From a virus, in the IMG/VR virus record IMGVR_UViG_3300027782_000230, positions 1 through 32,679 of that record: 32,679 nucleotides of DNA; one strand, given 5' to 3'. Under the pieces are notes generated by a model, which was not told the origin of the DNA, did no database searches, and was given only the letters and a program-made list of their open reading frames with translations. Shown piece after piece: positions 1,604 to 32,679 of this stretch (positions are counted from its first letter, which is position 1; each line of letters starts with the position of its first letter). A program made the translations under genes and the position numbers.

Positions 1604-2074
1604 ATGGCAGATGGAATTACTTACGGTATTAATTTTCCTTTTAGAGATTCTAGAAGGGGTGATTATTTAGAGTTAACAGAACTTGAAGCTCAAGAAATTA
1701 AAGCTGATTTAGTTCACTTGTTGTTAACAAGAAAGGGGTCACGATATTTTTTACCTGGTTTTGGTACAAGATTATATGAATTTCTTTTTGAACCCTTTGA
1801 TGGTTTAACATTTAATGCGATTGAATCTGACATAAGAGACGCTATTGAGAATTTTATGCCAAACTTATTAGTTAATAGTTTAAGTATAACGCCAGCTGAC
1901 CCTCAAGAAGAAATTGACATTGCAACAGGACAAAATACTGTTGGAACTAGTGAGTCATCAATTTATAGATTCCCTGGTAAAGGTACTTCAGAGTATACTG
2001 CAAAAATAAGATTAGATTATTCTACAAATGGTTCAACATATGCTCAGAGTGATTTTGTGATTATTAATATTTAA
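1604..2074 (+). CDS. 25: Baseplate wedge protein, gp25/GPW family
   Basis: 156-aa protein of the T4 gp25 / P2 gpW family, a baseplate wedge component that links the baseplate to the tail tube and sheath start. The diagnostic core is at about residues 39-64: LLLTRKGSRYFLPGFGTRLY followed by EFLFEP, matching the family's conserved Gly-Arg, Pro-x-Phe-Gly and Leu positions. The C-terminal part, residues about 100-156, adds a Gly/Ser/Thr-rich stretch and a short beta-rich tail, so the protein is slightly longer than minimal GPW domains. The start is the ATG after AT-rich DNA; there is no good Shine-Dalgarno sequence (only TATAGGT directly before it). It is followed after 5 nt by the gp6-like gene, the usual wedge-gene neighbourhood. 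Confidence 0.9.
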   Translation: MADGITYGINFPFRDSRRGDYLELTELEAQEIKADLVHLLLTRKGSRYFLPGFGTRLYEFLFEPFDGLTFNAIESDIRDAIENFMPNLLVNSLSITPADPQEEIDIATGQNTVGTSESSIYRFPGKGTSEYTAKIRLDYSTNGSTYAQSDFVIINI

Positions 2075-2079
2075 TAGAA

Positions 2080-3918
2080 ATGGCAAATAACAAAATATCA
2101 TACACTACTAGAGATTATCAGTCAATTAGAACTGAACTCTTAAATTATGCTAAAACTTACTATCCTGATTTAATTCAAGATTTTAATGACGCTTCGGTGT
2201 TTTCGGTATTTTTAGATTTAAATGCTGCGGTTGCAGATAACTTAAATTATAATATTGATAGAAGTATTCAAGAGACTGTTTTACAATATGCTCAACAAAG
2301 GTCTTCAATTTATAATATAGCTAGAACTTATGGTTTAAAATTACCAGGTCAAAGACCATCAGTTTCATTAGTTGATTTTTCTATTACTGTACCAGCATAT
2401 GGTGATAAAGAAGATGAAAGATATCTTGGAACTTTATTAAGAGGTTCGCAAGTTGTTGGGGCTGGAGTTGTTTTTGAAAATGTTTATGATATTGATTTTG
2501 CGTCCCCATATAATGCACAAGGTTTTCCTAATAGATTAAAAATACCAAATTTTAATGCTAATAATGTATTAGTTAATTATACTATTACTAAAAGAGAAGT
2601 TGTTGTTAACGGGATAACTAAAGTATTCAAAAGAGTTATTGGTGCAAATGATGTAAAACCTTTCTTTGAATTATTTTTACCTGAAAAAAATGTGTTAGGT
2701 ATTACAAGCGTTTTGTTAAAGAATGGAACTCAATATACAAATACACCTACAACAGCTGAATTTTTAGGTGCGGAGAATAGATGGTATGAAGTAGATGCCT
2801 TAGCTGAAGATAGAGTTTTCATTGAAGACCCAACAAAAGTTTCAGACCAACCAGGTATTAAAGTTGGTAGGTATATTCAAACACAAAATAGATTCATTAC
2901 TGAGTATACTCCTGAAGGTTTTAAAAAGATGACATTTGGTGGAGGTACAAACACTGCACAAGACCAATTAAATCAATTTACAACTTTAGGTACAACATTA
3001 GAGTTACAAAAATACTCAAATAATTTTTCATTAGGTTCTACGTTAGCACCAAACTCAACTTTATTTATTCAATATAGAATTGGTGGTGGATTAGCGACAA
3101 ACTTAGGAACAAACGTAATTAACCAAATTGGTACCGTTTCATTTTTTGTTAATGGACCGTCAGAGACAACAAACTCTGCGGTGGTTAATTCATTGAGATG
3201 TGTTAACGTAACTGCAGCGGTTGGAGGTGCGGGAGTTCCTTCATTAGAAGAAATTAGGAATTATGTATCATTTAACTTTGCAGCACAAAAAAGAGCGGTA
3301 ACAGTACAAGATTACGAATCAATTATTAGAAACATGCCAGCTCAATTCGGGGCACCTGCAAAGGTATCAATCACTGAAAATGACAATAAGATTTTAATTC
3401 AAATATTATCTTATGATACTTCAGGTAAATTAACAAACATTGTTTCAAACACATTAAGACAAAATATTGCAAATTATTTATCAAACTATAGAATGATGAA
3501 TGACTATATTTCAATATTCAGTGCTGAGGTTATTGACTTAAGTGTAGATATTTCAATTGTGTTAGATTCTGCTCAAAACTCAGGACAAGTTATATCAAGT
3601 GTTGTTGATAAGATTTCTGCTTACTTTAACCCACAAACGAGAGAGTTGGGTCAAAATGTATACCTTTCTGAACTTAGAAGTATTGTTCAGAATACTAATG
3701 GGGTATTAACAGTTGCAGGATTAGATGTGTTTAATGAAGTTGGAGGTCAATACTCTTCGGCAGAAACTTCTATGGTTTATACAAATGAGGAGACAAAATT
3801 AATAGGGCCTGTTGATGATACCATCTTTGCTCAACCATCTCAAGTTTACCAAATCAGATACCCAGGTAAAGACATTAGAGTGTCGGTAAAAAATTTCCAA
3901 TCAGTTACTTTTTCGTAA
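2080..3918 (+). CDS. 6: Baseplate wedge subunit, gp6-like (baseplate J family)
   Basis: 612-aa homologue of T4 gp6 / baseplate J, the wedge protein that forms the ring joining baseplate wedges and transmits the contraction signal. The N-terminus (ISYTTRDYQSIRTELLNYAK, then a Tyr-Pro-Asp and Asp-Phe-Asn-Asp-Ala segment) and the helix with DNLNYNIDRSIQETVLQYA at about 50-70 are characteristic. A second hallmark is at about residues 400-420 (AAQKRAVTVQDYESIIRNMP), the conserved domain found before the C-terminal ferredoxin-like modules of the family. Length is close to T4 gp6 (about 660 aa). The start ATG follows AATAGAA with no Shine-Dalgarno sequence. It lies 5 nt after the gp25-like gene and is probably co-transcribed with it. 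A 92-bp gap follows. Confidence 0.9.
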   Translation: MANNKISYTTRDYQSIRTELLNYAKTYYPDLIQDFNDASVFSVFLDLNAAVADNLNYNIDRSIQETVLQYAQQRSSIYNIARTYGLKLPGQRPSVSLVDFSITVPAYGDKEDERYLGTLLRGSQVVGAGVVFENVYDIDFASPYNAQGFPNRLKIPNFNANNVLVNYTITKREVVVNGITKVFKRVIGANDVKPFFELFLPEKNVLGITSVLLKNGTQYTNTPTTAEFLGAENRWYEVDALAEDRVFIEDPTKVSDQPGIKVGRYIQTQNRFITEYTPEGFKKMTFGGGTNTAQDQLNQFTTLGTTLELQKYSNNFSLGSTLAPNSTLFIQYRIGGGLATNLGTNVINQIGTVSFFVNGPSETTNSAVVNSLRCVNVTAAVGGAGVPSLEEIRNYVSFNFAAQKRAVTVQDYESIIRNMPAQFGAPAKVSITENDNKILIQILSYDTSGKLTNIVSNTLRQNIANYLSNYRMMNDYISIFSAEVIDLSVDISIVLDSAQNSGQVISSVVDKISAYFNPQTRELGQNVYLSELRSIVQNTNGVLTVAGLDVFNEVGGQYSSAETSMVYTNEETKLIGPVDDTIFAQPSQVYQIRYPGKDIRVSVKNFQSVTFS

Positions 3919-19346: not shown

Positions 19347-19388
19347 GAATAATAGTTTTTTATTTTTTACTTAAATAAGATAGTTGAA

Positions 19389-19398
19389 GTATTTATTT
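19389..19398 (+). promoter_or_regulatory. Candidate late-promoter element GTATTTATTT
   Basis: A TATTTAT core at 19390-19396 in the AT-rich gap 19347-19413, 15 nt before the preferred ATG at 19414. It is a weaker match than the copies at 1565, 3988 and 12965. The gap has T-runs but no convincing terminator stem. If this is the promoter, the upstream TTG start at 19384 would be excluded. Confidence 0.3.
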
Positions 19399-19413
19399 AA
19401 TAAAAAACATCTG

Positions 19414-20427
19414 ATGTCAACATATTCTATATTAGTAACAAATAACGCCCCTGGATGTGGAACTGAAATTGAACAACAATTAACAGTTACAGGTTGTACA
19501 TCCTACATTGTTAGATTAGATTCTAACTCAAACGCAATAGGACCATTCAATGTTTATGTTGATAGTGTTATATATTATTCCGCTCAAACAAGAACAGAAA
19601 TGATAAATGGTGTTGTTGTTAATTTACAATGTGCAACTCCAACACCAACTCCAAGTACAACACCGACCTCAACGCCAAATAGTGTAACACCAACTCAAAC
19701 TCCAACAAATACTGCGACACCAACCAATACACCAACACCAGGATTATCTCCAACGCAAACACCAAGTCATACACCAACACCAACAGTTACTCCAAGTATA
19801 ACTTCAAGTCCTGCGCCTGCTACGTTCAGTGCTTACTTATTCCCTGAACCACAAGACAGTACGTCATTAAATAATTTAGGTCAATTTATGTTTGATACTG
19901 GTGCTATTTCATTCTTTGGATGGGGTAACAGTGGTACTCCTGCAGGTGTAAACTATGCAACTGATTTGGCAATTTATGCTAGATATCCAGGATGGACAGG
20001 TAATTCAGGTAATTTTAAAACAAATGTTACTTCATTGGCTGGCGCAATTAGACAATCGTCAGGTGCTGGTGTAGATAGCTACGGATGCCCACAAAATCAA
20101 TATACTTTTGGTAGTATACAAGTTACAACGGCTCAAGTTGAACCTACAATACAGTATACGTACACAGTTTGGGTACCATTAACAGGTGTTGGAGGAACTC
20201 TTAATAATTTGACTCTTGACGTTGGCTTTGGTAGTCCTTGTTCAACATCAGTTATTAATGATGGTGTACCAGATGCAACAAATGCTGGTATTAACGTAAC
20301 GGTACCAAGTGGATGTGCAATTCCTTCAGGAACTTACAGAGTTTTATGGATGAACGAATTGTATTCTGAACCATCAGGAGTACCATTAACCACAACATTT
20401 TGGGTTAAAGGAGACACTAAATCATAA
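19414..20427 (+). CDS. Fibre/adhesin protein with Pro/Thr linker
   Basis: 337-aa protein in three parts. Residues 1-74 form a small N-terminal domain (MSTYSILVTNNAPGCGTEIE...), probably the virion attachment part, resembling the preceding 111-aa protein in style (Cys, NVYVDS). Residues 75-136 are a low-complexity Pro/Thr linker with TPTPTPS and TPTNTPTP-type units. Residues 137-337 form a beta-rich C-terminal domain (FSAYLFPEPQDSTSLNNLGQ to VKGDTKS) that I do not recognise and that could be a receptor-binding or structural tip. The ATG at 19414 is chosen over the TTG at 19384, because the upstream codons would overlap the candidate promoter and are Lys/Phe/Asn-rich like intergenic DNA. The same linker type occurs in the gene at 28900. 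Confidence 0.7.
   Translation: MSTYSILVTNNAPGCGTEIEQQLTVTGCTSYIVRLDSNSNAIGPFNVYVDSVIYYSAQTRTEMINGVVVNLQCATPTPTPSTTPTSTPNSVTPTQTPTNTATPTNTPTPGLSPTQTPSHTPTPTVTPSITSSPAPATFSAYLFPEPQDSTSLNNLGQFMFDTGAISFFGWGNSGTPAGVNYATDLAIYARYPGWTGNSGNFKTNVTSLAGAIRQSSGAGVDSYGCPQNQYTFGSIQVTTAQVEPTIQYTYTVWVPLTGVGGTLNNLTLDVGFGSPCSTSVINDGVPDATNAGINVTVPSGCAIPSGTYRVLWMNELYSEPSGVPLTTTFWVKGDTKS
19636..19821 (+). repeat. Pro/Thr-rich linker coding repeat
   Basis: 62 codons dominated by ACN-CCN alternation (TPTPTPS, TPTQTPTNTATPTNTPTP), giving an extended flexible linker between the N-terminal and C-terminal domains of the 19414 gene product. It is degenerate at the DNA level with mixed Thr and Pro codons. Confidence 0.85.
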
Positions 20428-20456: not shown

Positions 20457-23400
20457 ATGTCATTTCCGTATAAAAACCCCTTATCGTCATCACAGCTTGC
20501 AGGGCCTAATAGTGTTGTAAGAACTAGTACGTTTGGTACTAATTTCTCTGTATTACAGACGGGTGGTTACATGGAGGTTTATAATTTGCATGACTTAGGA
20601 TTAACACTAACTGCGGCAACTTATCCTTCAAACATCCAATTATCTGCTAACACAATACCTATTAACTTTACAAAAGGTACTGGTACTTCATTTTCACCTG
20701 ATTTTATTACATTAAATTCGGATAATATTTCTTCAGGTAGAAGAAGATTGGGTATGCTAGCTTACGTTCAAGAAACTGATACGGTTTACCAATATTCAAT
20801 TTTAAATTATGACGCATTATGGGGTAATGTTACTGGACTTACGGGTAGTTCTGCTATAACTGTTAGTGATTATGGTACGGTTGTTAACAGTCGTTCACAA
20901 GCAGGTAGAGATTTCATTGCCGCTTGGACAGGTTCAACAATTGAAGGTGTTAATGGTGTTAGTCATGTTGATGCGAGATGGAAAATATTTTATGGTTCAG
21001 ATGTTCAAATTACAGGTGGTACATATTATTCGGCCACAACAACTTTAGATTTATATAATAGTACGGGAGGAACAGTAACTGTTCCAGGATTTGCCGCTGC
21101 GGTAGTTAGTGGAACTTATGATAGTGGAACTAACGAGTTAACATTATACATGAGTGATGATGATAATATCGTTATTACTGGAATCACATCAGGAGGAGGA
21201 AGTCCTCTTAGTGTTGGAGACGGCGCAACAACCGTTACTAATGTAACTGGAATCACATTTAATGGTGGTACGGTTGTAGATGATGGTTCAGGTGCGATTA
21301 CTGTAACTGTAAATGGAAGTGGTACTTCAGGTAGTGATGGAACAAGTGGTTCAAGCGGAACTTCAGGAACAAGTGGTATTGATGGTTCAAGTGGTACTTC
21401 AGGAACAAGTGGTATTGATGGTTCAAGCGGTACTTCAGGTACAGATGGTTCATCAGGGATTAGTGGAACAGATGGTACTTCAGGAACGAATGGTTCAAGT
21501 GGTACTTCAGGAACGGATGGCTCAAGCGGTACTTCAGGTACTGACGGAACAAGTGGAATAGATGGTACTTCAGGAACAAGTGGAATAGATGGTTCTTCAG
21601 GAACTAGTGGTACAGACGGAACTAGTGGAACATCAGGTACTGATGGTAGTTCAGGAACAAGTGGTACAGACGGAACTAGCGGAACGGATGGTTCTTCAGG
21701 AACTAGCGGAACAGATGGTTCTTCAGGAACTAGCGGAACGGATGGTTCGTCAGGAACAAGTGGTACAGACGGAACTAGCGGAACGGATGGTTCTTCAGGA
21801 ACAAGTGGTACAGACGGAACTAGTGGAACATCAGGTACTGATGGTAGTTCAGGAACAAGTGGTACAGACGGAACTAGTGGAACATCAGGTACAGACGGAA
21901 CTAGTGGAACATCAGGTACTGATGGTAGTTCAGGAACAAGTGGTACAGACGGAACTAGCGGAACGGATGGTTCTTCAGGAACTAGCGGAACGGATGGTTC
22001 GTCAGGAACAAGTGGTACAGACGGAACTAGCGGAACGGATGGTTCTTCAGGAACTAGCGGAACAGATGGTTCTTCAGGTAGTGATGGAACAAGTGGTTCT
22101 TCAGGAACATCAGGTAGCGATGGAACAAGTGGAACTTCAGGTTCAGATGGAACTAGTGGTTCAGATGGAACAAGTGGTACTTCAGGTAGTGATGGAACAA
22201 GCGGTTCTTCAGGAACTAGTGGTACATCAGGAACTAGCGGCTCAGATGGTACAAGCGGTACTTCAGGTAGCGATGGTACAAGCGGTACTTCAGGTAGCGA
22301 TGGTACAAGCGGTACTTCAGGTACTGACGGAACAAGTGGAACTTCAGGTTCAGATGGAACTAGTGGTTCAAGCGGTACTTCAGGTAGCGATGGAACTAGT
22401 GGTTCTTCAGGAACTTCAGGTTCAGATGGAACTAGCGGTTCATCAGGTACAAGTGGTACTTCAGGTTCAGATGGAACTAGCGGTTCAGATGGAACTTCAG
22501 GAACAAGTGGTACAGATGGTTCTTCAGGTACTAGCGGTTCAGACGGAACTAGCGGTACTTCAGGTTCAGATGGAACTAGCGGTTCAGACGGAACAAGTGG
22601 TACTTCAGGTTCAGACGGAACTAGTGGTTCTTCAGGTACTAGCGGTTCAGACGGAACTAGTGGTACTTCAGGTTCAGACGGAACTAGTGGTTCTTCAGGA
22701 ACTTCAGGTAGCGATGGAACTAGCGGTTCAGATGGAACAAGTGGTACTAGCGGAACTTCAGGTAGCGATGGAACTTCAGGTTCAGATGGAACTAGCGGTT
22801 CAGACGGAACTAGCGGAACTTCAGGTAGTGATGGAACATCAGGAACTAGCGGTACAGATGGTAGTTCAGGAACTAGTGGAACTTCAGGTAGCGATGGAAC
22901 ATCAGGTACTAGTGGTTCAGATGGAACTAGCGGTACTTCAGGTTCAGACGGTACAAGTGGTACTTCAGGTTCAGATGGAACTTCAGGAACTAGCGGTTCA
23001 GACGGAACTTCAGGTTCGGATGGAACATCAGGTACATCGGCCTTAATTTGTACACCATTCTTAGCAGGTGATTATTATTTTCAAGCGGTAGCACAGCCTT
23101 ACAATGGACCTTCGTATCCAAATATGTCATGGGGTCCTGGACAAACATTAAGTGTTTATGCTCCTGATGACATTATAGAATATATGTTAATTAGTGGTTA
23201 TACCGCTTCAACAGGAGCTTTGGTTGCGGTTATTACATATTCTCAAAATCCTGGTTATAAAACACAGGCAGGAGTTACTCTTTGTCTTGTAGGTACACAA
23301 GGTTCAAATGGTACGTCAGGTTCAAGTGGTACGTCAGGTTCAAGTGGTACGTCAGGTTCAAGTGGTACGGATGGTTCGTCAGGAACTAGCGGTACAGACG

Positions 23401-26400
23401 GCTCAAGCGGAACTTCAGGAACTTCGGGTACAAGTGGAACAGATGGTTCTTCAGGAACTTCGGGAACAAGTGGAACAGATGGTACTTCAGGAATTAGCGG
23501 AACAGATGGTTCTTCAGGAACTAGCGGAACGGATGGTAGTTCAGGAACTAGCGGAACTTCAGGTACAGACGGTTCTTCAGGAACTAGCGGAACGGATGGT
23601 TCTTCAGGAACTAGCGGAACAGATGGTTCTTCAGGAACTAGCGGTACTTCAGGTTCAGATGGTTCATCAGGGACTAGCGGTACTTCAGGAACTAGCGGAA
23701 CGGATGGTAGTTCAGGAACTAGCGGAACTTCAGGTACTTCAGGTACTGACGGTAGTTCAGGAACAAGCGGAACGGATGGTTCAAGCGGTACTTCAGGTAC
23801 GGATGGTACTTCAGGAACTAGCGGAACGGATGGTAGTTCAGGAACTAGCGGAACTTCAGGTACAGACGGTTCTTCAGGAACTAGCGGAACGGATGGTTCT
23901 TCAGGAACTAGCGGTACTTCAGGTTCGGATGGAACTTCAGGTAGTGATGGTACATCAGGAACTAGCGGTTCAGATGGAACTAGCGGAACATCAGGTAGTG
24001 ATGGAACATCAGGAACTAGCGGTTCAGACGGAACAAGTGGTTCTTCAGGTACTTCAGGAATAAGTGGTGTAGACGGAACTGACGGAACTAGTGGAACTTC
24101 AGGTTCAGACGGAACTAACGGTACTTCAGGTACTTCAGGTAGCGATGGAACAAGTGGTTCTTCAGGAACTTCAGGTAGTGATGGTTCATCAGGTAGCGAT
24201 GGAACAAGTGGAACTTCAGGTAGCGATGGAACAAGTGGTTCTTCAGGAACTTCAGGTTCTGATGGTACTAGTGGAACTTCAGGTAGTGATGGTTCATCAG
24301 GTAGCGACGGTACAAGTGGTTCTTCAGGAACTTCAGGTACTAGTGGTTCAGATGGTACAAGTGGAACTTCAGGTAGCGATGGAACAAGTGGTTCTTCTGG
24401 AACTTCAGGTTCAGATGGTACAAGTGGAACTTCAGGTAGCGATGGAACAAGTGGTTCTTCAGGAACTTCAGGTAGCGATGGAACAAGCGGAACTTCAGGT
24501 AGTGATGGTTCATCAGGTAGCGACGGTACAAGTGGTTCTTCAGGAACTAGTGGAACTTCAGGTTCAGACGGAACTAGTGGTTCTTCAGGAACTTCAGGTA
24601 CTAGCGGTTCAGACGGAACATCTGGTAGTTCAGGAACTTCAGGTAGTGATGGAACAAGCGGTACTTCAGGTACTAGTGGTTCAGACGGAACTAGCGGAAC
24701 TTCAGGAACATCAGGTAGCGACGGAACAAGTGGTTCTTCAGGTACTTCAGGTAGTGATGGTACAAGTGGTTCTTCAGGTACTAGTGGTTCTTCAGGTACT
24801 AGTGGTTCAGACGGAACTTCAGGAACATCAGGTAGTGATGGAACAAGCGGTACTTCAGGTAGTGATGGTACAAGTGGTTCAAGTGGAACTTCAGGTAGCG
24901 ATGGTACAAGTGGAACTTCAGGTAGCGATGGTACAAGCGGTACTTCAGGTAGCGATGGAACAAGTGGTTCAAGTGGAACTTCAGGTAGCGATGGAACAAG
25001 CGGTACTTCAGGTTCTGATGGTACTAGCGGAACTTCAGGTACTAGTGGTTCAGATGGTACAAGTGGAACTTCAGGTAGCGATGGAACAAGTGGAACTTCA
25101 GGTAGCGATGGAACAAGCGGAACTTCAGGTACTAGTGGTTCAGACGGAACTAGCGGTACTTCAGGAACTTCAGGTAGTGATGGAACAAGTGGTACTTCAG
25201 GTTCTGATGGTACTTCAGGTTCCGACGGAACTAGTGGTTCTTCAGGAACTTCAGGTACTAGCGGTTCAGACGGAACATCTGGTAGTTCAGGAACATCAGG
25301 TAGCGACGGAACAAGTGGTTCTTCAGGTACTTCAGGTAGTGATGGAACAAGCGGTACTTCAGGTAGTGATGGTACAAGTGGTTCTTCAGGTACTAGTGGT
25401 TCAGACGGAACTAGCGGAACTTCAGGAACATCAGGTAGTGATGGAACAAGCGGTACTTCAGGTAGTGATGGTACAAGTGGTTCAAGTGGAACTTCAGGTA
25501 ACGATGGTACAAGTGGTTCAAGTGGAACTTCAGGTAGCGATGGTACAAGCGGAACTTCAGGAACTAGCGGCTCAGATGGTACAAGCGGTACTTCAGGTTC
25601 TGATGGTACTAGCGGAACTTCAGGTACTAGTGGTTCAGACGGAACTAGCGGTTCTTCAGGAACATCAGGTAGTGATGGAACTAGTGGCTCAAGTGGAACT
25701 TCAGGTAGCGATGGAACAAGCGGTACTTCAGGAACTTCAGGAATAAGTGGTGTAGACGGAACTGACGGAACTAGTGGAACTTCAGGTAGTGATGGAACTA
25801 GTGGTTCAAGTGGTTCTTCAGGAACATCAGGTAGCGACGGAACAAGTGGTACTTCAGGTTCAGACGGAACAAGCGGTACTTCAGGAACATCAGGTAGCGA
25901 TGGAACAAGTGGTTCAAATGGAACTTCAGGTAGTGATGGTACTAGCGGTACTTCAGGTTCAGACGGAACTAGTGGTTCAAGTGGTACTTCAGGAACTTCA
26001 GGTAGCTCAGGTTCATCAGGAACATCAGGTACTAGTGGAACTTCAGGTTCGGACGGAACTAGTGGTTCAAGTGGTACTTCAGGAACATCAGGTAGCGACG
26101 GAACAAGCGGTACTAGCGGTACTTCAGGTTCAGACGGAACTAGTGGTTCAAGTGGTACTTCAGGAACTTCAGGTAGCTCAGGTTCATCAGGAACATCAGG
26201 TAGCTCAGGTTCATCAGGAACATCAGGTACTAGTGGAACTTCAGGTTCGGACGGAACTAGTGGTTCAAGTGGTACTTCAGGAACATCAGGTAGCGACGGA
26301 ACAAGCGGTACTAGCGGTACTTCAGGTTCAGACGGAACTAGTGGTTCAAGTGGTACTTCAGGAACTTCAGGTAGCGACGGAACAAGCGGTACTAGTGGTA

Positions 26401-28847
26401 CTTCAGGAACATCAGGTAGCGACGGAACAAGCGGTACTTCAGGAACATCAGGTAGCGATGGAACAAGTGGTTCAAGTGGAACTTCAGGTAGTGATGGAAC
26501 AAGCGGTTCTTCAGGAACTAGTGGTAGCTCAGGTTCAAGTGGTTCTTCAGGAACTAGCGGTTCAGACGGTACTAGTGGAACTTCAGGTTCTGATGGTACT
26601 AGTGGTTCTTCAGGAACGTCAGGTAGTGATGGAACAAGTGGTACATCAGGTTCGGACGGAACTAGTGGTACTTCAGGTAGTGATGGAACAAGTGGTTCAA
26701 GCGGAACTTCAGGTAGTTCGGGAACATCAGGTAGTGATGGAACTAGTGGTACTTCAGGTTCAGATGGTACGTCGGGTAGTTCAGGAACTTCAGGAACATC
26801 AGGTTCGGATGGTACTTCGGGTAGCTCAGGAACAAGTGGTTCGTCAGGAACTAGCGGTAGCTCAGGAACATCAGGTTCAAGCGGTTCATCAGGAACTAGC
26901 GGTAGCTCAGGAACATCAGGAACAAGTGGTTCTTCAGGAACTAGCGGAACTTCAGGTTCAAGTGGTTCTTCAGGAACTAGCGGAACTTCAGGTTCAAGTG
27001 GTTCTTCAGGAACTAGCGGAACTTCAGGTTCGGATGGTACATCAGGTTCAAGTGGTTCTTCGGGAACTTCAGGTAGCAGTGGAACATCAGGTTCAAGTGG
27101 TTCATCAGGAACTAGCGGTAGCTCAGGAACATCAGGAACAAGTGGTTCTTCAGGAACTAGCGGAAGTTCAGGAACATCAGGTTCAAGTGGTTCATCAGGA
27201 ACATCAGGAAGCAGTGGAACTTCAGGTTCAAGTGGTTCATCAGGAACTAGCGGAACTTCAGGTTCGGATGGTAGTTCAGGTTCTTCAGGAACTAGCGGAA
27301 CTTCAGGTTCGGATGGTACTTCAGGTTCATCAGGAACTAGTGGTAGCTCAGGAACATCAGGTTCAAGCGGTTCTTCAGGAACTAGCGGAACTTCAGGTTC
27401 AAGTGGTTCATCAGGAACTAGCGGAAGCTCAGGTTCTTCAGGAACTAGCGGAACTTCAGGAACATCAGGTTCAAGTGGTTCATCAGGAACTAGCGGAACT
27501 TCAGGAACATCAGGTTCAAGTGGTACATCAGGAAGTTCAGGAACATCAGGTTCAAGTGGTTCTTCAGGAACTAGCGGTAGCGATGGTACTTCAGGAACAT
27601 CAGGTTCAAGCGGAACAAGTGGTTCAAGTGGTTCATCAGGAACTAGCGGTAGCTCAGGAACTTCAGGTTCGGATGGTACTTCGGGTAGCTCAGGAACAAG
27701 TGGTTCTTCAGGAACTAGCGGAACTTCAGGTTCAAGTGGTTCTTCGGGAACTTCAGGTAGCAGTGGAACATCAGGTTCAAGTGGTTCTTCAGGAACTAGC
27801 GGAACATCAGGTTCTTCAGGAACTTCAGGTTCAAGTGGAACAAGTGGTTCTTCGGGAACTAGCGGAACTTCAGGTTCAAGTGGAACATCGGGAACTAGCG
27901 GAACTTCAGGTACAGATGGTAGTTCAGGTTCTTCAGGAACTAGCGGAACTTCAGGTTCGGATGGTACTTCAGGTTCATCAGGAACTAGTGGTAGCTCAGG
28001 AACATCAGGTTCAAGCGGTTCTTCAGGAACTAGCGGAACTTCAGGTTCAAGTGGTTCATCAGGAACTAGCGGAAGCTCAGGTTCTTCAGGAACTAGCGGA
28101 ACTTCAGGAACATCAGGTTCAAGTGGTTCATCAGGAACTAGCGGAACTTCAGGAACATCAGGTTCAAGTGGTACATCAGGAAGTTCAGGAACATCAGGTT
28201 CAAGTGGTTCTTCAGGAACTAGCGGTAGCGATGGTACTTCAGGTAGCTCAGGTTCTTCAGGAACATCAGGTTCAAGTGGTTCTTCAGGAACTAGCGGAAC
28301 TTCAGGTTCAAGTGGTTCATCAGGAACTAGCGGAACTTCAGGAACATCAGGTTCAAGTGGTTCATCAGGAACTAGCGGTAGCTCAGGTTCTTCAGGAACA
28401 TCAGGAACAGGATTTAGTGCAGTTACTGACCCTGGTTTAACAAGAATTCTAACATCAGATGGAACAACAGACGGAGCAATAGCTCAATCAGGTTTCACGT
28501 TTGATGGTACATACTTAAGTTTGATTGGTACACAAAGAATACAGAGTGATGTAAATACTGGAGTAACTACTAGTACGTCTCTTTATCAAATACCGACCTT
28601 AAGTGGGTGTGGAGCGTTCTTTGACTATTGTGTCATAGATGGTTCGGATAATAAGAGACTTGGAACTGTAATGGCGACATGGGATAGTAGTGGTGCTGCA
28701 TTTACAGATACTTCAACACCTGACTTGAATGGTTCAACAATAGGATTAGGATTTACCGTAACCGTATCGGGAGCAAATGTAAACTTCAACTCAGTAGTAA
28801 CGAGTGGAACATGGACGATTAGATTATCGGTAAGAGTAGTATATTAA
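20457..28847 (+). CDS. Giant collagen-like (Gly-X-Y) tail-fibre protein
   Basis: 2796-aa protein. Residues 1-288 are a beta-rich N-terminal domain, probably virion-attached. Residues 289-861 (191 triplets) and 946-2649 (568 triplets) are continuous Gly-X-Y repeats made of GTS, GSS, GTD, GSD and rare GID, GIS, GVD, GTN and GND. No proline is present in the triplets. Residues 862-945 are a non-repeat island with Cys near each end. Residues 2650-2796 form a C-terminal domain (RILTSDGTTDGAIAQSGFTF to RLSVRVVY) that resembles tips of phage fibres and is probably a trimerisation or receptor-binding head. Glycine at every third residue is the collagen signature. Phage collagen-like fibres are known, but lack of proline and this length are unusual. 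The start is the ATG after an AT-rich 29-bp gap without a Shine-Dalgarno sequence. A hairpin follows. Role inferred: long, probably trimeric, host-binding fibre. Confidence 0.85.
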   Translation: MSFPYKNPLSSSQLAGPNSVVRTSTFGTNFSVLQTGGYMEVYNLHDLGLTLTAATYPSNIQLSANTIPINFTKGTGTSFSPDFITLNSDNISSGRRRLGMLAYVQETDTVYQYSILNYDALWGNVTGLTGSSAITVSDYGTVVNSRSQAGRDFIAAWTGSTIEGVNGVSHVDARWKIFYGSDVQITGGTYYSATTTLDLYNSTGGTVTVPGFAAAVVSGTYDSGTNELTLYMSDDDNIVITGITSGGGSPLSVGDGATTVTNVTGITFNGGTVVDDGSGAITVTVNGSGTSGSDGTSGSSGTSGTSGIDGSSGTSGTSGIDGSSGTSGTDGSSGISGTDGTSGTNGSSGTSGTDGSSGTSGTDGTSGIDGTSGTSGIDGSSGTSGTDGTSGTSGTDGSSGTSGTDGTSGTDGSSGTSGTDGSSGTSGTDGSSGTSGTDGTSGTDGSSGTSGTDGTSGTSGTDGSSGTSGTDGTSGTSGTDGTSGTSGTDGSSGTSGTDGTSGTDGSSGTSGTDGSSGTSGTDGTSGTDGSSGTSGTDGSSGSDGTSGSSGTSGSDGTSGTSGSDGTSGSDGTSGTSGSDGTSGSSGTSGTSGTSGSDGTSGTSGSDGTSGTSGSDGTSGTSGTDGTSGTSGSDGTSGSSGTSGSDGTSGSSGTSGSDGTSGSSGTSGTSGSDGTSGSDGTSGTSGTDGSSGTSGSDGTSGTSGSDGTSGSDGTSGTSGSDGTSGSSGTSGSDGTSGTSGSDGTSGSSGTSGSDGTSGSDGTSGTSGTSGSDGTSGSDGTSGSDGTSGTSGSDGTSGTSGTDGSSGTSGTSGSDGTSGTSGSDGTSGTSGSDGTSGTSGSDGTSGTSGSDGTSGSDGTSGTSALICTPFLAGDYYFQAVAQPYNGPSYPNMSWGPGQTLSVYAPDDIIEYMLISGYTASTGALVAVITYSQNPGYKTQAGVTLCLVGTQGSNGTSGSSGTSGSSGTSGSSGTDGSSGTSGTDGSSGTSGTSGTSGTDGSSGTSGTSGTDGTSGISGTDGSSGTSGTDGSSGTSGTSGTDGSSGTSGTDGSSGTSGTDGSSGTSGTSGSDGSSGTSGTSGTSGTDGSSGTSGTSGTSGTDGSSGTSGTDGSSGTSGTDGTSGTSGTDGSSGTSGTSGTDGSSGTSGTDGSSGTSGTSGSDGTSGSDGTSGTSGSDGTSGTSGSDGTSGTSGSDGTSGSSGTSGISGVDGTDGTSGTSGSDGTNGTSGTSGSDGTSGSSGTSGSDGSSGSDGTSGTSGSDGTSGSSGTSGSDGTSGTSGSDGSSGSDGTSGSSGTSGTSGSDGTSGTSGSDGTSGSSGTSGSDGTSGTSGSDGTSGSSGTSGSDGTSGTSGSDGSSGSDGTSGSSGTSGTSGSDGTSGSSGTSGTSGSDGTSGSSGTSGSDGTSGTSGTSGSDGTSGTSGTSGSDGTSGSSGTSGSDGTSGSSGTSGSSGTSGSDGTSGTSGSDGTSGTSGSDGTSGSSGTSGSDGTSGTSGSDGTSGTSGSDGTSGSSGTSGSDGTSGTSGSDGTSGTSGTSGSDGTSGTSGSDGTSGTSGSDGTSGTSGTSGSDGTSGTSGTSGSDGTSGTSGSDGTSGSDGTSGSSGTSGTSGSDGTSGSSGTSGSDGTSGSSGTSGSDGTSGTSGSDGTSGSSGTSGSDGTSGTSGTSGSDGTSGTSGSDGTSGSSGTSGNDGTSGSSGTSGSDGTSGTSGTSGSDGTSGTSGSDGTSGTSGTSGSDGTSGSSGTSGSDGTSGSSGTSGSDGTSGTSGTSGISGVDGTDGTSGTSGSDGTSGSSGSSGTSGSDGTSGTSGSDGTSGTSGTSGSDGTSGSNGTSGSDGTSGTSGSDGTSGSSGTSGTSGSSGSSGTSGTSGTSGSDGTSGSSGTSGTSGSDGTSGTSGTSGSDGTSGSSGTSGTSGSSGSSGTSGSSGSSGTSGTSGTSGSDGTSGSSGTSGTSGSDGTSGTSGTSGSDGTSGSSGTSGTSGSDGTSGTSGTSGTSGSDGTSGTSGTSGSDGTSGSSGTSGSDGTSGSSGTSGSSGSSGSSGTSGSDGTSGTSGSDGTSGSSGTSGSDGTSGTSGSDGTSGTSGSDGTSGSSGTSGSSGTSGSDGTSGTSGSDGTSGSSGTSGTSGSDGTSGSSGTSGSSGTSGSSGTSGSSGSSGTSGSSGTSGTSGSSGTSGTSGSSGSSGTSGTSGSSGSSGTSGTSGSDGTSGSSGSSGTSGSSGTSGSSGSSGTSGSSGTSGTSGSSGTSGSSGTSGSSGSSGTSGSSGTSGSSGSSGTSGTSGSDGSSGSSGTSGTSGSDGTSGSSGTSGSSGTSGSSGSSGTSGTSGSSGSSGTSGSSGSSGTSGTSGTSGSSGSSGTSGTSGTSGSSGTSGSSGTSGSSGSSGTSGSDGTSGTSGSSGTSGSSGSSGTSGSSGTSGSDGTSGSSGTSGSSGTSGTSGSSGSSGTSGSSGTSGSSGSSGTSGTSGSSGTSGSSGTSGSSGTSGTSGSSGTSGTSGTSGTDGSSGSSGTSGTSGSDGTSGSSGTSGSSGTSGSSGSSGTSGTSGSSGSSGTSGSSGSSGTSGTSGTSGSSGSSGTSGTSGTSGSSGTSGSSGTSGSSGSSGTSGSDGTSGSSGSSGTSGSSGSSGTSGTSGSSGSSGTSGTSGTSGSSGSSGTSGSSGSSGTSGTGFSAVTDPGLTRILTSDGTTDGAIAQSGFTFDGTYLSLIGTQRIQSDVNTGVTTSTSLYQIPTLSGCGAFFDYCVIDGSDNKRLGTVMATWDSSGAAFTDTSTPDLNGSTIGLGFTVTVSGANVNFNSVVTSGTWTIRLSVRVVY
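21321..23039 (+). repeat. Gly-X-Y triplet block 1 (191 triplets)
   Basis: 1719 bp = 191 x 9 bp, each unit GGN followed by two Thr/Ser/Asp codons. The first part (to about 22075) is dominated by GTD-GSS-GTS units; the second part by GSD-GTS-GSS units. Codon choice varies (GGT/GGA; ACT/ACA; TCA/TCT/AGT/AGC), so DNA identity between neighbouring units is imperfect. The local GC content is visibly higher than in flanking genes. Confidence 0.95.
23040..23291 (+). other. Non-repeat island inside the Gly-X-Y stalk
   Basis: 84 codons (residues 862-945) that interrupt the triplets: begins ALICTPFLAGDYYFQAVAQP and ends AGVTLCLV. It has aromatic residues, prolines and two cysteines (near the two ends), and predicted beta character. 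It could be a folded knob, hinge or trimer-registration domain in the stalk. The Gly-X-Y phase resumes directly after it with GTQ-GSN-GTS. Confidence 0.85.
25998..26177 (+). repeat. Direct repeat A, copy 1 (180 bp)
   Basis: Identical by eye to 26196-26375, at an offset of 198 bp (22 triplets). The copies are nearly tandem, with 18 bp between them. Confidence 0.85.
26196..26375 (+). repeat. Direct repeat A, copy 2 (180 bp)
   Basis: Second copy of the 180-bp repeat at 25998-26177. The copies diverge at the next base on each side (26178 T versus 26376 G). Confidence 0.85.
27267..27595 (+). repeat. Direct repeat B, copy 1 (329 bp)
   Basis: Identical by eye to 27915-28243, offset 648 bp (72 triplets), in the Asp-poor part of the stalk. 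The encoded segment begins with GSDGSSGSS and ends in GSDGTSG. Confidence 0.85.
27915..28243 (+). repeat. Direct repeat B, copy 2 (329 bp)
   Basis: Second copy of the 329-bp repeat at 27267-27595; the flanks differ (GTD instead of GSD at the start, GSS instead of GTS after the end). Confidence 0.85.
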
Positions 28848-28899: not shown

Positions 28900-30012
28900 A
28901 TGGCTACAGCAAGACCATTCTCGTATAACATAGGTTCAGCAATTGCGGGGACAATACAAGTTGGAAGTTTGGCGGTAGGAGTTCCTACCTCAGGATTTAC
29001 AAACAGTCCAAAATTTTGGGATGGACCCGATGAAGAATTGGGTTATGTGATTGCGGTACCTGTATCAGGTAATACACAACCAACACCTGTATCAGGAGTT
29101 ACCGCATCAGTTGGATTTTATAGGACGGATGATTTTACTGACAATTCATTTATTGGTTTGGCTCAATATGTTTCAAATCAATATGGAACACCACAAACAT
29201 TTTCATCTGGAAATGATGCATCAACATGGTTAACCACTAACGGATATTGGAATTCTTGGATTTTTCTTACACCAACTCCAACCCCGACACCAACTATAAC
29301 CCCAACAAATACAATTACACCGACCAATACTAAAACGCCAACTGTAACACCAACAAATACTCAAACGACAACAATTACACCTACTAAAACTCAAACACCA
29401 ACTCCAACAAATATAAACGCACAAGGATTTAGTTATTCTAACTTTGCGTCAACTGGAGGTACTGTTTCTGTTGGTAACGTATCACTATCATCAAACATTC
29501 TTTATTTAACAACGGCTACTGCGGGTCAGGTTGGTAATGTTTATAGAACAACCGCAATTCAATATAACAGAAACTTCTCAACTCAATGGTCAACATTTAT
29601 TGGAGGAGGCTCAGGTGCTGATGGATATTGTGTACAATGGACAACAACAAATAATACAAATGGTTCTACAGGTGGTGGAGTTGGTTTAATTACTAATGCA
29701 ATAAATGCAATTACATTCTTAACATATACAAACAACAATTATACTTGGTATAAAAATAACGTTTCACAAGGTGCAACAAGTGTTAGTTCAGGATTTTGGA
29801 GACAAACATTGTATTTTTGGGGTGACTATAATCATTCTGCACAAACATTCGCACTTTATTACAATACAACAAATAGTAAACCTGGTTCACCAAATAAAAC
29901 ATTTACTAGTTTCTCATTTGACACAGGTTCTTACTATATGGGATTTGGAGCAGGAACAGGGGGTGCTAACGATAACCAAGAATTATTATCTTGGAGTTTA
30001 ACCTTTACATAA
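28900..30012 (+). CDS. Adhesin with Pro/Thr linker and L-type lectin-like C-terminal domain
   Basis: 370-aa protein. Residues 1-123 form an N-terminal domain (MATARPFSYNIGSAIAGTIQ...), probably for virion attachment. Residues 124-170 are a Pro/Thr linker (TPTPTPTPTITPTNT-type). Residues about 172-370 look like an L-type (legume/ConA-like) lectin: the hallmarks are GADGYCVQW (compare the GADG-x-x-F-x-x-Q motif), GGGVGLITNAINAITFLTYT at the position where this family has the extended FD-containing strand, and the last strand YYMGFGAGTGGANDNQELLS followed by WSLTF, matching the G-F-x-A-x-T-G-G ... LSWSF ending. The start ATG follows AGAAACAATA without a Shine-Dalgarno sequence. Neighbours are two Gly-X-Y fibres. 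Inferred role: carbohydrate binding at the host surface. The sugar is unknown, and metal-site residues cannot be assigned by eye. Confidence 0.75.
   Translation: MATARPFSYNIGSAIAGTIQVGSLAVGVPTSGFTNSPKFWDGPDEELGYVIAVPVSGNTQPTPVSGVTASVGFYRTDDFTDNSFIGLAQYVSNQYGTPQTFSSGNDASTWLTTNGYWNSWIFLTPTPTPTPTITPTNTITPTNTKTPTVTPTNTQTTTITPTKTQTPTPTNINAQGFSYSNFASTGGTVSVGNVSLSSNILYLTTATAGQVGNVYRTTAIQYNRNFSTQWSTFIGGGSGADGYCVQWTTTNNTNGSTGGGVGLITNAINAITFLTYTNNNYTWYKNNVSQGATSVSSGFWRQTLYFWGDYNHSAQTFALYYNTTNSKPGSPNKTFTSFSFDTGSYYMGFGAGTGGANDNQELLSWSLTFT
29269..29409 (+). repeat. Pro/Thr-rich linker coding repeat
   Basis: 47 codons of Thr-Pro alternation mixed with Thr-Asn/Ile/Lys (TPTITPTNTITPTNTKTPT), joining the N-terminal and lectin-like domains of the 28900 gene product. 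It is the same linker class as at 19636-19821 but with different codons and different X residues. Confidence 0.85.
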
Positions 30013-30090: not shown

Positions 30091-30192
30091 ATGCTTTTAT
30101 TACCAAAAGAAATTCGTAATGTATTTATTGATAATAAACATAAAAGAGTTTTTCTTTTGGAAAGTGAAAAAAGAAATAAAAAATGGCAATAA
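30091..30192 (+). CDS. Possible 33-aa leader ORF
   Basis: ATG directly after the T-run of the terminator opens a 33-codon frame (MLLLPKEIRNVFIDNKHKRV..., ending NKKWQ, stop at 30190-30192) that overlaps the start of the next fibre gene by 10 nt. It is Lys/Arg/Leu-rich and unlike the neighbouring structural proteins. No Shine-Dalgarno sequence is possible because the terminator stem lies directly upstream, and a candidate promoter core (TATTTAT) lies inside it. It may be chance in AT-rich DNA. Confidence 0.25.
   Translation: MLLLPKEIRNVFIDNKHKRVFLLESEKRNKKWQ
30121..30130 (+). promoter_or_regulatory. Weak candidate late-promoter element GTATTTATTG
   Basis: A TATTTAT core at 30122-30128, between the terminator and the last fibre gene, 52 nt before its ATG at 30183. 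This gene needs its own promoter because a strong terminator lies upstream. The match is weaker and the spacing longer than for the other copies. Confidence 0.25.
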
Positions 30193-32679
30193 ATCCAAAT
30201 CAATTTGTCGCTCGTAAAGGTATTATATCTTTAGGAAGCGTAACATTCCCCTTAATACAGAAAAATAGTAACTATAACATAGGCTTTGATGACTATGGTA
30301 TTGAGTATACTGGCGGTACTTATACCGCAACATTACCATCACCTGCTAATATAACAGGAAAAATTTATTTTATTAAAAATTCAGGTAATGGTGTCATTAC
30401 TGTTGATACTAGCGCGGGGTTAATTGATGGTCAATCTTCTATAACATTAGGCCAATATGGTTCATTACAAGTTGAAAGTAATGGAACAAATTATATTATT
30501 TCAGGGGTAGATGGTACTTCAGGTACTTCAGGAAGCTCAGGTTCAAGTGGTTCTTCAGGTTCTTCAGGAACATCTGGTTCAAGTGGAACAAGTGGTTCAT
30601 CAGGAAGCTCAGGTTCATCAGGAACGTCAGGTTCAAGTGGTTCTTCAGGAACATCAGGTTCTTCAGGAACTAGTGGTAGCTCAGGTTCTTCAGGAACATC
30701 AGGAAGCAGTGGTAGCTCAGGTTCAAGTGGAACAAGTGGTTCTTCAGGAACTAGCGGTTCTTCAGGTTCTTCAGGAACAAGTGGTTCTTCAGGAACTAGC
30801 GGTAGCTCAGGTTCTTCAGGAACATCAGGAACATCAGGTTCAAGTGGAACATCAGGTTCTTCAGGAACTAGCGGTTCTTCAGGAACTAGCGGTAGCTCAG
30901 GTTCTTCAGGAACTAGTGGTAGCTCAGGTTCTTCAGGAACATCAGGAAGCAGTGGTAGCTCAGGTTCAAGTGGAACAAGTGGTTCATCAGGAACTAGCGG
31001 TTCTTCAGGTTCATCAGGAACAAGTGGTTCTTCAGGAACTAGCGGTAGCTCAGGTTCTTCAGGAACATCAGGAACATCAGGTTCAAGTGGAACAAGTGGT
31101 TCATCAGGAACTAGCGGTTCTTCAGGAACTAGCGGTAGCTCAGGTTCTTCAGGAACATCAGGTTCAAGTGGAACAAGTGGTTCTTCAGGAACTAGCGGTA
31201 GCTCAGGTTCATCAGGAAGTTCAGGAACATCAGGTTCAAGTGGTACAAGTGGTTCATCAGGAACTAGCGGTAGCTCAGGTTCAAGTGGTACAAGTGGTTC
31301 ATCAGGAACTAGCGGTTCAAGTGGTTCTTCAGGTTCTTCGGGAACATCAGGTTCAAGTGGTACAAGTGGTTCTTCAGGAACTAGCGGTAGCTCAGGTTCA
31401 AGTGGTTCTTCAGGTTCTTCAGGAACATCAGGTTCAAGTGGTACTTCAGGTTCTTCAGGAACATCAGGTTCAAGTGGTTCTTCAGGAACTAGCGGTAGCT
31501 CAGGTTCATCAGGAAGTTCAGGAACATCAGGTTCAAGTGGTTCTTCAGGAACATCAGGTTCAAGTGGTACAAGTGGTACAAGTGGTTCATCAGGAACTAG
31601 TGGTAGCTCAGGTTCATCAGGAAGTTCAGGAACATCAGGTTCAAGTGGTACAAGTGGCTCTTCAGGAACATCGGGAAGTAGCGGAACATCAGGTTCTTCA
31701 GGTTCTTCAGGTTCTTCAGGAACATCAGGCTCAAGTGGTACTTCAGGGTTAAGTGGAGTAAATGGGACATCAGGTTCATCAGGAACTAGCGGTAGCTCAG
31801 GTTCAAGTGGTTCTTCAGGAACTAGCGGTTCAAGTGGTACTTCAGGTTCAAGTGGAACAAGTGGTTCTTCAGGAACTAGCGGTAGCTCAGGTTCATCAGG
31901 AAGTTCAGGAACATCAGGTTCAAGTGGTACAAGTGGTTCATCAGGAACTAGCGGTAGCTCAGGTTCATCAGGAACTAGCGGTTCAAGTGGTTCTTCAGGT
32001 TCTTCGGGAACATCAGGTTCAAGTGGTACTTCAGGTTCATCAGGAACTAGCGGTAGCTCAGGTTCAAGTGGTTCTTCAGGAACATCAGGTTCAAGTGGTA
32101 CAAGTGGTTCATCAGGAACTAGTGGTAGCTCAGGTTCAAGTGGTACAAGTGGTTCATCAGGAACTAGCGGTAGTTCAGGTTCAAGTGGTTCTTCAGGAAC
32201 ATCAGGTTCAAGTGGTACTTCAGGTTCTTCAGGAAGTTCAGGAACATCAGGTTCAAGTGGTACTTCAGGTTCTTCAGGAACTAGCGGTAGCTCAGGTTCA
32301 TCAGGAAGTTCAGGAACATCAGGTTCAAGTGGAACAAGCGGTTCTTCAGGAACTAGCGGTAGCTCAGGTTCAAGTGGTTCTTCAGGAACATCTGGTTCAA
32401 GTGGTACTTCAGGTTCTTCAGGAACTAGCGGTAGCTCAGGTTCTTCAGGAACTAGCGGTAGCTCAGGTTCTTCAGGTTCTTCGGGAACATCAGGTTCAAG
32501 TGGTTCTTCAGGAACTAGTGGAAGCTCAGGAACATCAGGTTCAAGTGGTACGAGTGGTTCATCAGGAACTAGCGGTAGTTCAGGTTCAAGTGGTTCTTCA
32601 GGAACATCAGGTTCAAGTGGTACTTCAGGTTCTTCAGGAAGTTCAGGAACATCAGGTTCAAGTGGTACTTCAGGTTCTT
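30183..32679 (+). CDS. Second Gly-X-Y (collagen-like) tail-fibre protein, 3'-truncated by window edge
   Basis: At least 832 codons; the frame is open to the window end with no visible stop. Residues 1-107 form a fibre N-terminal domain (MAINPNQFVARKGIISLGSV..., then YTATLPSPANITGKIYFIKN and TVDTSAGLIDGQSS), the latter resembling a beta-rich module common in phage tail fibres in which TLP, IKN-x-G and TIDG-type motifs recur. From residue 108 it is Gly-X-Y: GVD then GTS and GSS, more than 240 triplets, almost free of Asp and proline, with one odd GLS-GVN near 31746. The start ATG follows AAAAAGAAATAAAAA; the A-rich context and lack of Shine-Dalgarno are like the other genes. The C-terminal tip is outside the window. 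Role inferred: a second long fibre, of a different type or a paralogue of the 20457 product. Confidence 0.85.
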   Translation, partial: MAINPNQFVARKGIISLGSVTFPLIQKNSNYNIGFDDYGIEYTGGTYTATLPSPANITGKIYFIKNSGNGVITVDTSAGLIDGQSSITLGQYGSLQVESNGTNYIISGVDGTSGTSGSSGSSGSSGSSGTSGSSGTSGSSGSSGSSGTSGSSGSSGTSGSSGTSGSSGSSGTSGSSGSSGSSGTSGSSGTSGSSGSSGTSGSSGTSGSSGSSGTSGTSGSSGTSGSSGTSGSSGTSGSSGSSGTSGSSGSSGTSGSSGSSGSSGTSGSSGTSGSSGSSGTSGSSGTSGSSGSSGTSGTSGSSGTSGSSGTSGSSGTSGSSGSSGTSGSSGTSGSSGTSGSSGSSGSSGTSGSSGTSGSSGTSGSSGSSGTSGSSGTSGSSGSSGSSGTSGSSGTSGSSGTSGSSGSSGSSGSSGTSGSSGTSGSSGTSGSSGSSGTSGSSGSSGSSGTSGSSGSSGTSGSSGTSGTSGSSGTSGSSGSSGSSGTSGSSGTSGSSGTSGSSGTSGSSGSSGSSGTSGSSGTSGLSGVNGTSGSSGTSGSSGSSGSSGTSGSSGTSGSSGTSGSSGTSGSSGSSGSSGTSGSSGTSGSSGTSGSSGSSGTSGSSGSSGSSGTSGSSGTSGSSGTSGSSGSSGSSGTSGSSGTSGSSGTSGSSGSSGTSGSSGTSGSSGSSGSSGTSGSSGTSGSSGSSGTSGSSGTSGSSGTSGSSGSSGSSGTSGSSGTSGSSGTSGSSGSSGSSGTSGSSGTSGSSGTSGSSGSSGTSGSSGSSGSSGTSGSSGSSGTSGSSGTSGSSGTSGSSGTSGSSGSSGSSGTSGSSGTSGSSGSSGTSGSSGTSGS
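30504..32679 (+). repeat. Gly-X-Y triplet block of the second fibre (runs off the window)
   Basis: At least 241 consecutive 9-bp triplets, nearly all GSS or GTS. It includes near-identical internal copies, for example about 30665-30850 and 30908-31093, offset 243 bp (27 triplets), differing by eye at two synonymous Ser codons (TCT/TCA). Confidence 0.9.

Follow-up and report, generated by a model that had tools for sequence, protein, structure and literature searches.

A very long proline-free Gly-X-Y protein of a viral metagenome contig belongs to a widespread modular phage fibre family

The window analysed here is the complete 32,679-base record IMGVR_UViG_3300027782_000230 of the IMG/VR virus database, and the gene in question is an open reading frame (ORF) at 20457-28847 (+ strand, ATG start) that encodes a protein of 2796 amino acids built around two perfect, proline-free Gly-X-Y (GXY) repeat runs. 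The protein is an exceptionally long representative of a modular phage fibre family that is widespread; the kind is known, but the variant is not characterised as far as a survey of the open-access literature shows. From the N- to the C-terminus it consists of a putative virion anchor, a first GXY shaft, an 84-residue module (the bead), a second GXY shaft, and a cap followed by a beta-sandwich head. The explanation considered probable, and favoured here, is that it is a modular homotrimeric fibre of a T4-like contractile-tail phage with Pro-free triple-helical shafts. A first-pass annotation, made from the sequence alone, had proposed a collagen-like fibre of a tailed phage, and this is supported by the score against the Pfam family Collagen (PF01391), the baseplate genes in the window, and the gp9- and tailspike-like predicted fold of the head.

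Shaft 1 (21321..23039, + strand; residues 289-861) comprises 191 perfect triplets and shaft 2 (23292..28412, + strand; residues 946-2652) comprises 569, the first being GTQ and the last GTG, giving 760 triplets with glycine at 760 of 760 positions. The first-pass annotation had reported 759 triplets (191 + 568); its count for run 1 was correct, whereas that for run 2 had omitted the last GTG. Its description of glycine at every third residue, with X and Y almost exclusively Thr, Ser and Asp and with no Pro, was borne out: X is T 456, S 293, I 8, V 2 and N 1, and Y is S 584, D 170, N 4, Q 1 and G 1. The 18 prolines of the protein and all of its Lys, Arg and Glu are confined to the non-repeat parts, and across ten other ORFs of the window, 4.4% of residues (6269 in total) are Pro. 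The two variable positions are not interchangeable, as Thr is found at X in 456 of 456 cases and Asp at Y in 170 of 170. Asp triplets are also kept apart, with 0 and 2 adjacent pairs in runs 1 and 2, respectively, versus means of 19.8 and 20.3 when the Y column was shuffled. Chance does not account for the glycine runs: when the repeat residues were shuffled 500 times, none exceeded 14 triplets (mean 6.7).

The 760 Gly codons always carry G at positions 1 and 2, with T (428), A (325), C (5) or G (2) at position 3, and the 7 and 11 tripeptide types of runs 1 and 2 are encoded by 36 and 61 distinct 9-mers, respectively. The variation in the third codon position and the many 9-mers per tripeptide indicate that the GXY pattern is maintained in the protein and goes beyond a young DNA repeat; a recent tandem duplication, of a 198-bp unit, nevertheless lies within run 2 (25989-26375, 99% identical). 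A Pfam search of the whole protein matched Collagen as the sole family, at 982.1 bits against a cut-off of 27.2 (a score inflated by low complexity), and the runs of 191 and 569 triplets both exceed the 20 uninterrupted GXY triplets taken as a minimum for PF01391. Matches of the repeat to PHROGs families were not used as family evidence due to the low complexity that drives them, and the repeat is also spanned by long ORFs on the minus strand and in other frames, which were dismissed as by-products of codon usage. A Ca-binding RTX beta-roll was ruled out by eye, given the strict period of three and the lack of a hydrophobic strand residue.

The C-terminal cap (FSAVTDPGLTRILTSDGT...) and beta-sandwich head together form the last 144 residues (28413..28844, + strand; stop codon 28845-28847), and a relative of at least part of this region was found at 41 loci. 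In the window, shaft 2 passes into the cap as GTG followed by FSAVTDPGLTRILTSDGT. The cap also follows Pro-containing repeats, as GETGPQGPG followed by FDTISNPGATRILTSDGT in L095 and L096 and as GDQGPG followed by FDAVYNPGANRLLVSDGT in L105 (L-numbers are locus labels of relatives). Among 30 distinct GXY runs that precede the cap, 26 are Pro-free and 4 contain Pro (L048, L095, L096 and L128); runs of fewer than 8 triplets were ignored, which places L105 outside the count, and copies are present among the 30 (L046/L077, L095/L096 and L089/L092/L093). As the cap follows both Pro-free and Pro-containing runs, the Pro-free repeat occupies the place of other collagen-like repeats in related proteins. 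This sharing is the best evidence, albeit indirect, that the Pro-free shaft may be the same kind of structure as the Pro-containing repeats.

An AlphaFold2 model of the last 154 residues, built from 24 aligned rows (predicted local distance difference test (pLDDT) 85.0, predicted template modelling score 0.73), has a beta-sandwich fold like that of the C-terminal domain of T4 gp9. A second-look structural aligner matched it to gp9 (1qex_A) with a Z score of 12.4 and a root-mean-square deviation of 2.2 over 106 residues at 8% identity, the match being limited to gp9 residues 169-283. The next matches were a Klebsiella phage baseplate chain (9f4a, Z 10.6) and the C-termini of tailspikes or fibres (6e1r, 9.6; 7xy1, 8.7; 6c72, 8.7), followed by further tailspike-type entries at Z 6-7 and by proteins of other kinds below 6. 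Foldseek comparison of the head with predicted viral proteins gave 106 matches at E ≤0.001, and the best 50 of these were mostly unnamed phage proteins, several of them annotated as tail fibre or virion. At the sequence level, gp9 was absent from the 4 PDB sequence matches of the head profile (A3) at E values up to 1. The gp9 protein and tailspikes are trimers, and Peptidase_S74 domains are trimerising chaperones of phage fibres. Since the head resembles gp9 and tailspikes, and Peptidase_S74 ends are present in the relatives L013 and L360, the data fit a trimeric fibre without proving it.

The N-terminal domain (20457..21320, + strand; residues 1-288) is the likely virion anchor. Its final ~40 residues form a cap that recurs in relatives immediately before GXY, and this cap pattern precedes 34 of 825 distinct GXY runs. 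The anchor alignment (A1, 26 rows) has a mean column identity of 74%, and a profile search of PDB sequences with the anchor returned 3 matches, the best at E 0.32. Between the shafts, the bead (23040..23291, + strand; residues 862-945) carries a Cys near each end. Bead relatives were found at 23 loci (15 distinct sequences), and all 23 have GXY on either side, with GTS, GES, GAT, GYS, GYTGS or GIQ as the flanking triplet types. Both cysteines are present at 17 of these loci and both are absent at 6, this co-retention suggesting a disulphide or a paired contact. Another unusual chemistry with little Pro surrounds the bead at L068 and L076, where Tyr is abundant at X (GYSGYSGIS).

Relatives of the anchor were found at 44 IMG/VR loci (56-100% identical in the best segment), of which 38 carry GXY and 6 do not. 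The latter (L030-L035) encode identical 556-residue proteins with an N-domain 67% identical to that of the window, on contigs of up to 309 kb, and the collagen model had no match in the two of these six contigs that were searched (contig labels G005 and G016; 309 kb and 102 kb). The gene upstream of the fibre gene in the window (19384..20427, + strand), which encodes a protein with a Thr/Pro-rich stretch, has a relative located upstream at all 44 anchor loci, and a Hoc-like/SprB gene located three genes upstream (16873-19014; 713 residues, with SprB repeats (PF13573) and Hoc-like similarity) has a relative in 42 of 44. As this synteny is kept across loci with and without GXY, the place of the anchor in the genome is fixed, whereas the shaft can be exchanged. 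In the relatives, successive GXY runs are separated by modules of ~60 to 170 residues, some of them common to several loci or repeated within one protein. The C-termini are likewise exchanged, L013 having the same anchor as the window and a Peptidase_S74 end (30.6 bits, cut-off 22).

The composition of the repeat was compared across 26 loci, a set from which near-duplicates (L010, L011, L014, L016, L018 and L020) were skipped and L002, L030-L035, L037, L038, L040-L042 and L044 were left out, which still includes some close copies (L004/L005, L017/L019, L024/L025 and L039/L043/L045), and in which runs of fewer than 5 triplets were not counted. The 5724 GXY triplets of this set have mostly Thr, Ser, Ile, Val and Glu at X and mostly Ser, Asp, Thr and Asn at Y, with Pro at 2 of 11,433 X and Y positions. 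Glycine is replaced 12 times, always in phase and always by Ala (11 in L027 and 1 in L013), and there are no short off-phase breaks. The position rule is looser in the family than in the window, Thr being found 169 times at Y and Asp 4 times at X. The 11 Ala residues of L027 lie in its second GXY stretch (L027:9001-15006), in SSATS units, and represent a rare tolerated change that was apparently multiplied by duplication.

No named relative of the anchor, the bead or the L096 head was found in 50,697 phage records (E limits 1e-5, 1e-3 and 1e-3, respectively), and the window head had two matches there, both in an uncultured 735-kb phage. A (GTS)4 DNA pattern was found in at least 120 stretches of viral contigs and at least 118 of genome contigs. 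Among the 118 genome loci listed, 31 have a GXY-type run of at least 15 triplets, a number that serves as a guide only, as some of these runs are out of frame. Loci in Burkholderia and Paraburkholderia genomes (L255, L257, L269, L308 and L316) have 46-86 uninterrupted, Pro-free and almost pure GTS triplets, in agreement with the published GTS-type collagen-like proteins of that group.

Shaft length was compared between closely related contigs. In seven contigs of one phage group (L039-L045), which have no codon change in the N-domain, the L043 repeat differs from the others by seven gaps that are all multiples of nine bases (36, 18, 27, 9, 27, 9 and 9), and L041 and L045 differ by a single 81-base gap over 5733 aligned bases. 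Gaps that are not in nines were seen in two same-virus pairs, of 12 bases (L019/L020) and 51 bases (L004/L005), both near the end of the alignable part; a more distant pair (L023/L026), with several gaps not in nines, was left out of the comparison. Whole triplets thus seem to be gained or lost, leaving the shaft without a fixed length, a pattern that errors in the assembly of repeats can mimic. At 0.286 nm per residue, the 2280 repeat residues would extend over 652 nm, a figure that presupposes a triple-helical shaft at full extension. The ~650 nm span given in the first-pass annotation is correct as arithmetic under that condition, but it is not a measurement, and the number of triplets varies between near-identical contigs. 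The T4 tail is ~100 nm long. In the available part of its report, a published triple-helix model of (GAS)19 measures 163 Å for 57 residues (PMC7682875).

The window is evidently a fragment, since the end genes on both sides are cut. A partial ribonucleotide reductase gene at one end is followed by gp25-like (1604-2074, + strand; PHROGs) and gp6/Baseplate_J-like (2080-3918, + strand; PHROGs, and PF04865 at 34.1 bits, cut-off 21.1) baseplate wedge genes, several unassigned genes and then the set of fibre-type genes. The wedge genes (1604..3918) point to a contractile-tail phage. Their relatives are only distant (~27%) and belong to Flavobacterium phage immuto, Microcystis phage Mel-JY01 and one uncultured phage; the wedge gene order matches that of immuto, where genes annotated as tail fibre and tail spike come next. 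The Hoc-like/SprB gene product may have Ig-like display domains and perhaps indicates a link to Bacteroidota. Downstream of the fibre gene, the 28900-30012 protein combines a linker rich in Thr and Pro with a C-terminus weakly similar to legume lectins (15.3 bits, below the cut-off of 24), and is possibly a sugar-binding fibre. A second GXY fibre gene (30183..32678, + strand), truncated at the contig end, has a different N-domain and 241 complete triplets that are nearly all Ser/Thr and contain no Pro. This N-domain shows a distant likeness to Arthrobacter and Microbacterium phage proteins, some of them annotated as minor tail protein. In L360, where the N-domain is 47% identical, the relative of this second fibre gene is intact, with 2775 codons, 658 uninterrupted Pro-free triplets and a Peptidase_S74 end (33.6 bits). 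No GXY run of at least 8 triplets was found in the regions fetched from immuto, Mel-JY01, one Arthrobacter phage and one Microbacterium phage.

In the favoured explanation, the N-terminal domain would dock the fibre on the virion, most likely at the tail or baseplate, and the two collagen-type shafts with the bead would hold the gp9/tailspike-like head far from the particle, a reach that may serve adsorption. The head and cap would probably align three chains in register, with nucleation of the shaft proceeding from the C-terminus. As a triple helix without Pro, the shaft would gain little stability from each triplet and would depend on its length and on the trimeric end domains to be viable, and its length would drift through gain and loss of whole triplets. 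A further-reaching proposal, put forward tentatively and with the balance tipping somewhat against it, is that such phage fibres reach the collagen triple helix through a sequence solution of their own, with Thr or other beta-branched or aromatic residues favoured at X and Ser, Asp or Asn at Y, without Pro or charge pairs and with Asp triplets kept apart. These shafts would be stable over 400-650 uninterrupted triplets by way of hydroxyl and hydration networks, trimerisation at the ends and perhaps O-glycans or metal, and would be tuned in length by whole triplets. The first-pass annotation had noted that known collagen-like proteins normally contain Pro and charged residues, which agrees with the literature in the portions available, and had taken the composition of the window protein to imply either a new stabilisation or a non-collagen fold. 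That inference was too strong: as Pro-free GTS/GSS repeats (Bucl3; PMC4565658) and a circular dichroism (CD) signal of (GAS)19 read as a triple helix (PMC7682875) are both in print, new stabilisation chemistry is not implied. Glycosylation, for which a search for glycosyltransferase genes had been suggested, has no specific support, since PF00535 is present in 10 of 14 relatives' contigs but unlinked to GXY: it also occurs in a 309-kb relative without a collagen-model match, and it was not found in the 48-kb contig that represents the same virus.

Several observations weigh against the favoured explanation. The stabilisers usual in collagens are absent from the shaft (no Pro and no Lys/Arg), leaving 170 Asp per chain without a partner of opposite charge, and Thr is found solely at X, versus the preference for Y that the sources consulted in part describe for bacterial collagens. 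The AlphaFold2 model of the anchor is poor (pLDDT 52.5, 26 rows), and attachment by this domain is putative. Foldseek comparison of the head with PDB structures gave no match under E 0.001 (best 1.3e-3; gp9 4.6e-3), the gp9 match coming from the second-look aligner. Peptidase_S74 is not the head of the window protein itself, as judged by a Pfam search of its C-domain, and was found in only 1 of the 14 relatives' contigs searched; it was therefore rejected as a general mark of the family and counts as evidence for particular relatives only. In addition, the Hoc-like/SprB gene three genes upstream would be in keeping with a location on the capsid.

The alternatives differ in which part of the favoured explanation they replace. 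The shaft could be a disordered, hydrophilic Gly/Ser/Thr tether or brush that merely spaces the head from the particle, as its composition is like that of flexible Gly-Ser linkers, its length varies between near-identical contigs, and the anchor can do without it (L030-L035). Such a tether would not need glycine at every one of 760 positions, Thr only at X and Asp only at Y, and just 12 in-phase glycine replacements in the triplets of the 26 loci speak against it as well; it is considered unlikely. The shaft could also be a polyglycine-II assembly, in which single chains fold back into packed helices, as in the tip adhesin of phage S16, and the fibre would then be compact rather than ~650 nm long. 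Polyglycine II needs glycine at regular positions and tolerates Ser, Thr and Asp, which suits the repeat, and a phage adhesin with a polyglycine-rich domain is known from the available descriptions. However, runs of 191-658 triplets without a turn-like break fit a folded-back bundle poorly, and the bead and cap recur in GXY proteins with different triplet chemistries, Pro-containing ones among them, a distribution in keeping with a triple helix; this assembly is regarded as quite improbable.

Two further alternatives concern the location and the length of the protein rather than the conformation of its shaft, and both are given a low probability. A capsid fibre or decoration protein, instead of a tail fibre, would agree with the position of the Hoc-like/SprB gene and with the two head-and-packaging virion families that PHROGs gives for the repeat, matches that are driven by low complexity. 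Against this, the fold of the head is of the type found in gp9 and tailspike C-termini, and the order of the wedge genes is that of immuto, with its tail fibre and tail spike genes following. Part of the length could likewise be an artefact of metagenome assembly, given that 31 of the 38 GXY-bearing relatives stop at the contig end ahead of a stop codon and that run 2 contains the 198-bp duplication. A second, 48-kb IMG/VR contig of the same virus (L002) agrees with the window at 12,110 of 12,110 bases, an overlap that covers the whole of run 1 and approximately the first 30 triplets of run 2, the remainder of run 2 coming from one contig. The identity of run 1 in this contig, the intact frame and termini, and other uncut frames of similar size (2733 amino acids in L009, 2361 amino acids in L045 and the 2775 codons of L360) argue against such an artefact.

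What makes the window fibre interesting is the question of whether a collagen rod of such a size can truly form in the absence of proline. If the shafts are true triple helices, a collagen rod would be possible at great length without proline, hydroxyproline or salt bridges, which would bear on what glycine periodicity alone can buy and offer a simple, genetically encoded rod material; phages could then carry fibres several times longer than the T4 tail. The family offers natural controls, in that the same anchor occurs with and without a shaft and the same bead and cap occur on differing repeat chemistry.

Among known systems, T4 gp9 (1qex) resembles the window protein in its C-terminal domain, which the predicted head matches; to our knowledge, gp9 has no collagen shaft. 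The tip adhesin gp38 of phage S16 is, by the partial description available, also a Gly-rich phage adhesion protein with a polyglycine-rich part; the window fibre differs in matching Collagen as its one Pfam family, gp38 having been compared by description only. The published systems below are likewise described from the available portions of their reports. Structural genes of pelagimyophages and cyanomyophages contain triple collagen repeats, and these T4-like phages are comparable in having such repeats among their baseplate or fibre genes, which are there merely named in a list (PMC7029224). A survey of open-access literature by titles and abstract openings found no study of Thr/Ser/Asp GXY phage fibres among the papers listed, and none of the 7 open-access papers containing the string GTSGTSG was on phages by title.

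The closest known systems also include collagen-like proteins of Burkholderia. Bucl3 has GTS/GSS repeats, all Bucl proteins except Bucl5 lack Pro, and the computed melting temperatures are 20-35 °C for most of them (PMC4565658); recombinant Bucl8 (GAS)19 gave a shallow CD peak at 220 nm at 25 °C, read as a triple helix, that was gone at 50 °C (PMC7682875). Bucl3 and Bucl8 share with the window fibre a Pro-free GXY repeat, in their case of one or two triplet types and a strain-variable triplet number (PMC4565658, PMC7682875), and GTS, one of the Bucl3 triplets (PMC4565658), is the dominant one in the window fibre. In contrast, these are cellular proteins with far fewer triplets (38-63 in Bucl3 and 4-38 in Bucl8) of GTS, GSS and GAS without Asp, and the portions of the two reports used here describe no gp9-like head for either (PMC4565658, PMC7682875). 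The E. coli prophage proteins EPclA and EPclB are likewise phage-type fibres, with an N-terminal domain, a collagen-like shaft and a C-terminal trimerisation domain, EPclB also having an internal globular part; recombinant EPclA, a prophage tail fibre protein, is a trimer with a triple helix that melts at 42 °C (PMC3368898). The EPcl collagen is rich in Pro at X (approximately half) and charged, whereas the window shaft lacks Pro, Lys and Arg in 760 triplets, and the whole EPclA chain is ~47 kDa, with a shaft far shorter than that of the window (PMC3368898). The PfN (PF08400) and PfC (PF06820) domains of EPcl had no match at E up to 0.1 in the window protein, searched whole or as its N- and C-domains alone. 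Collagen-like phage fibres and Pro-free GXY repeats are thus both already in print, and what is unusual here is the scale, the complete lack of Pro and positive charge, the placement of Thr at X and the separation of the Asp triplets.

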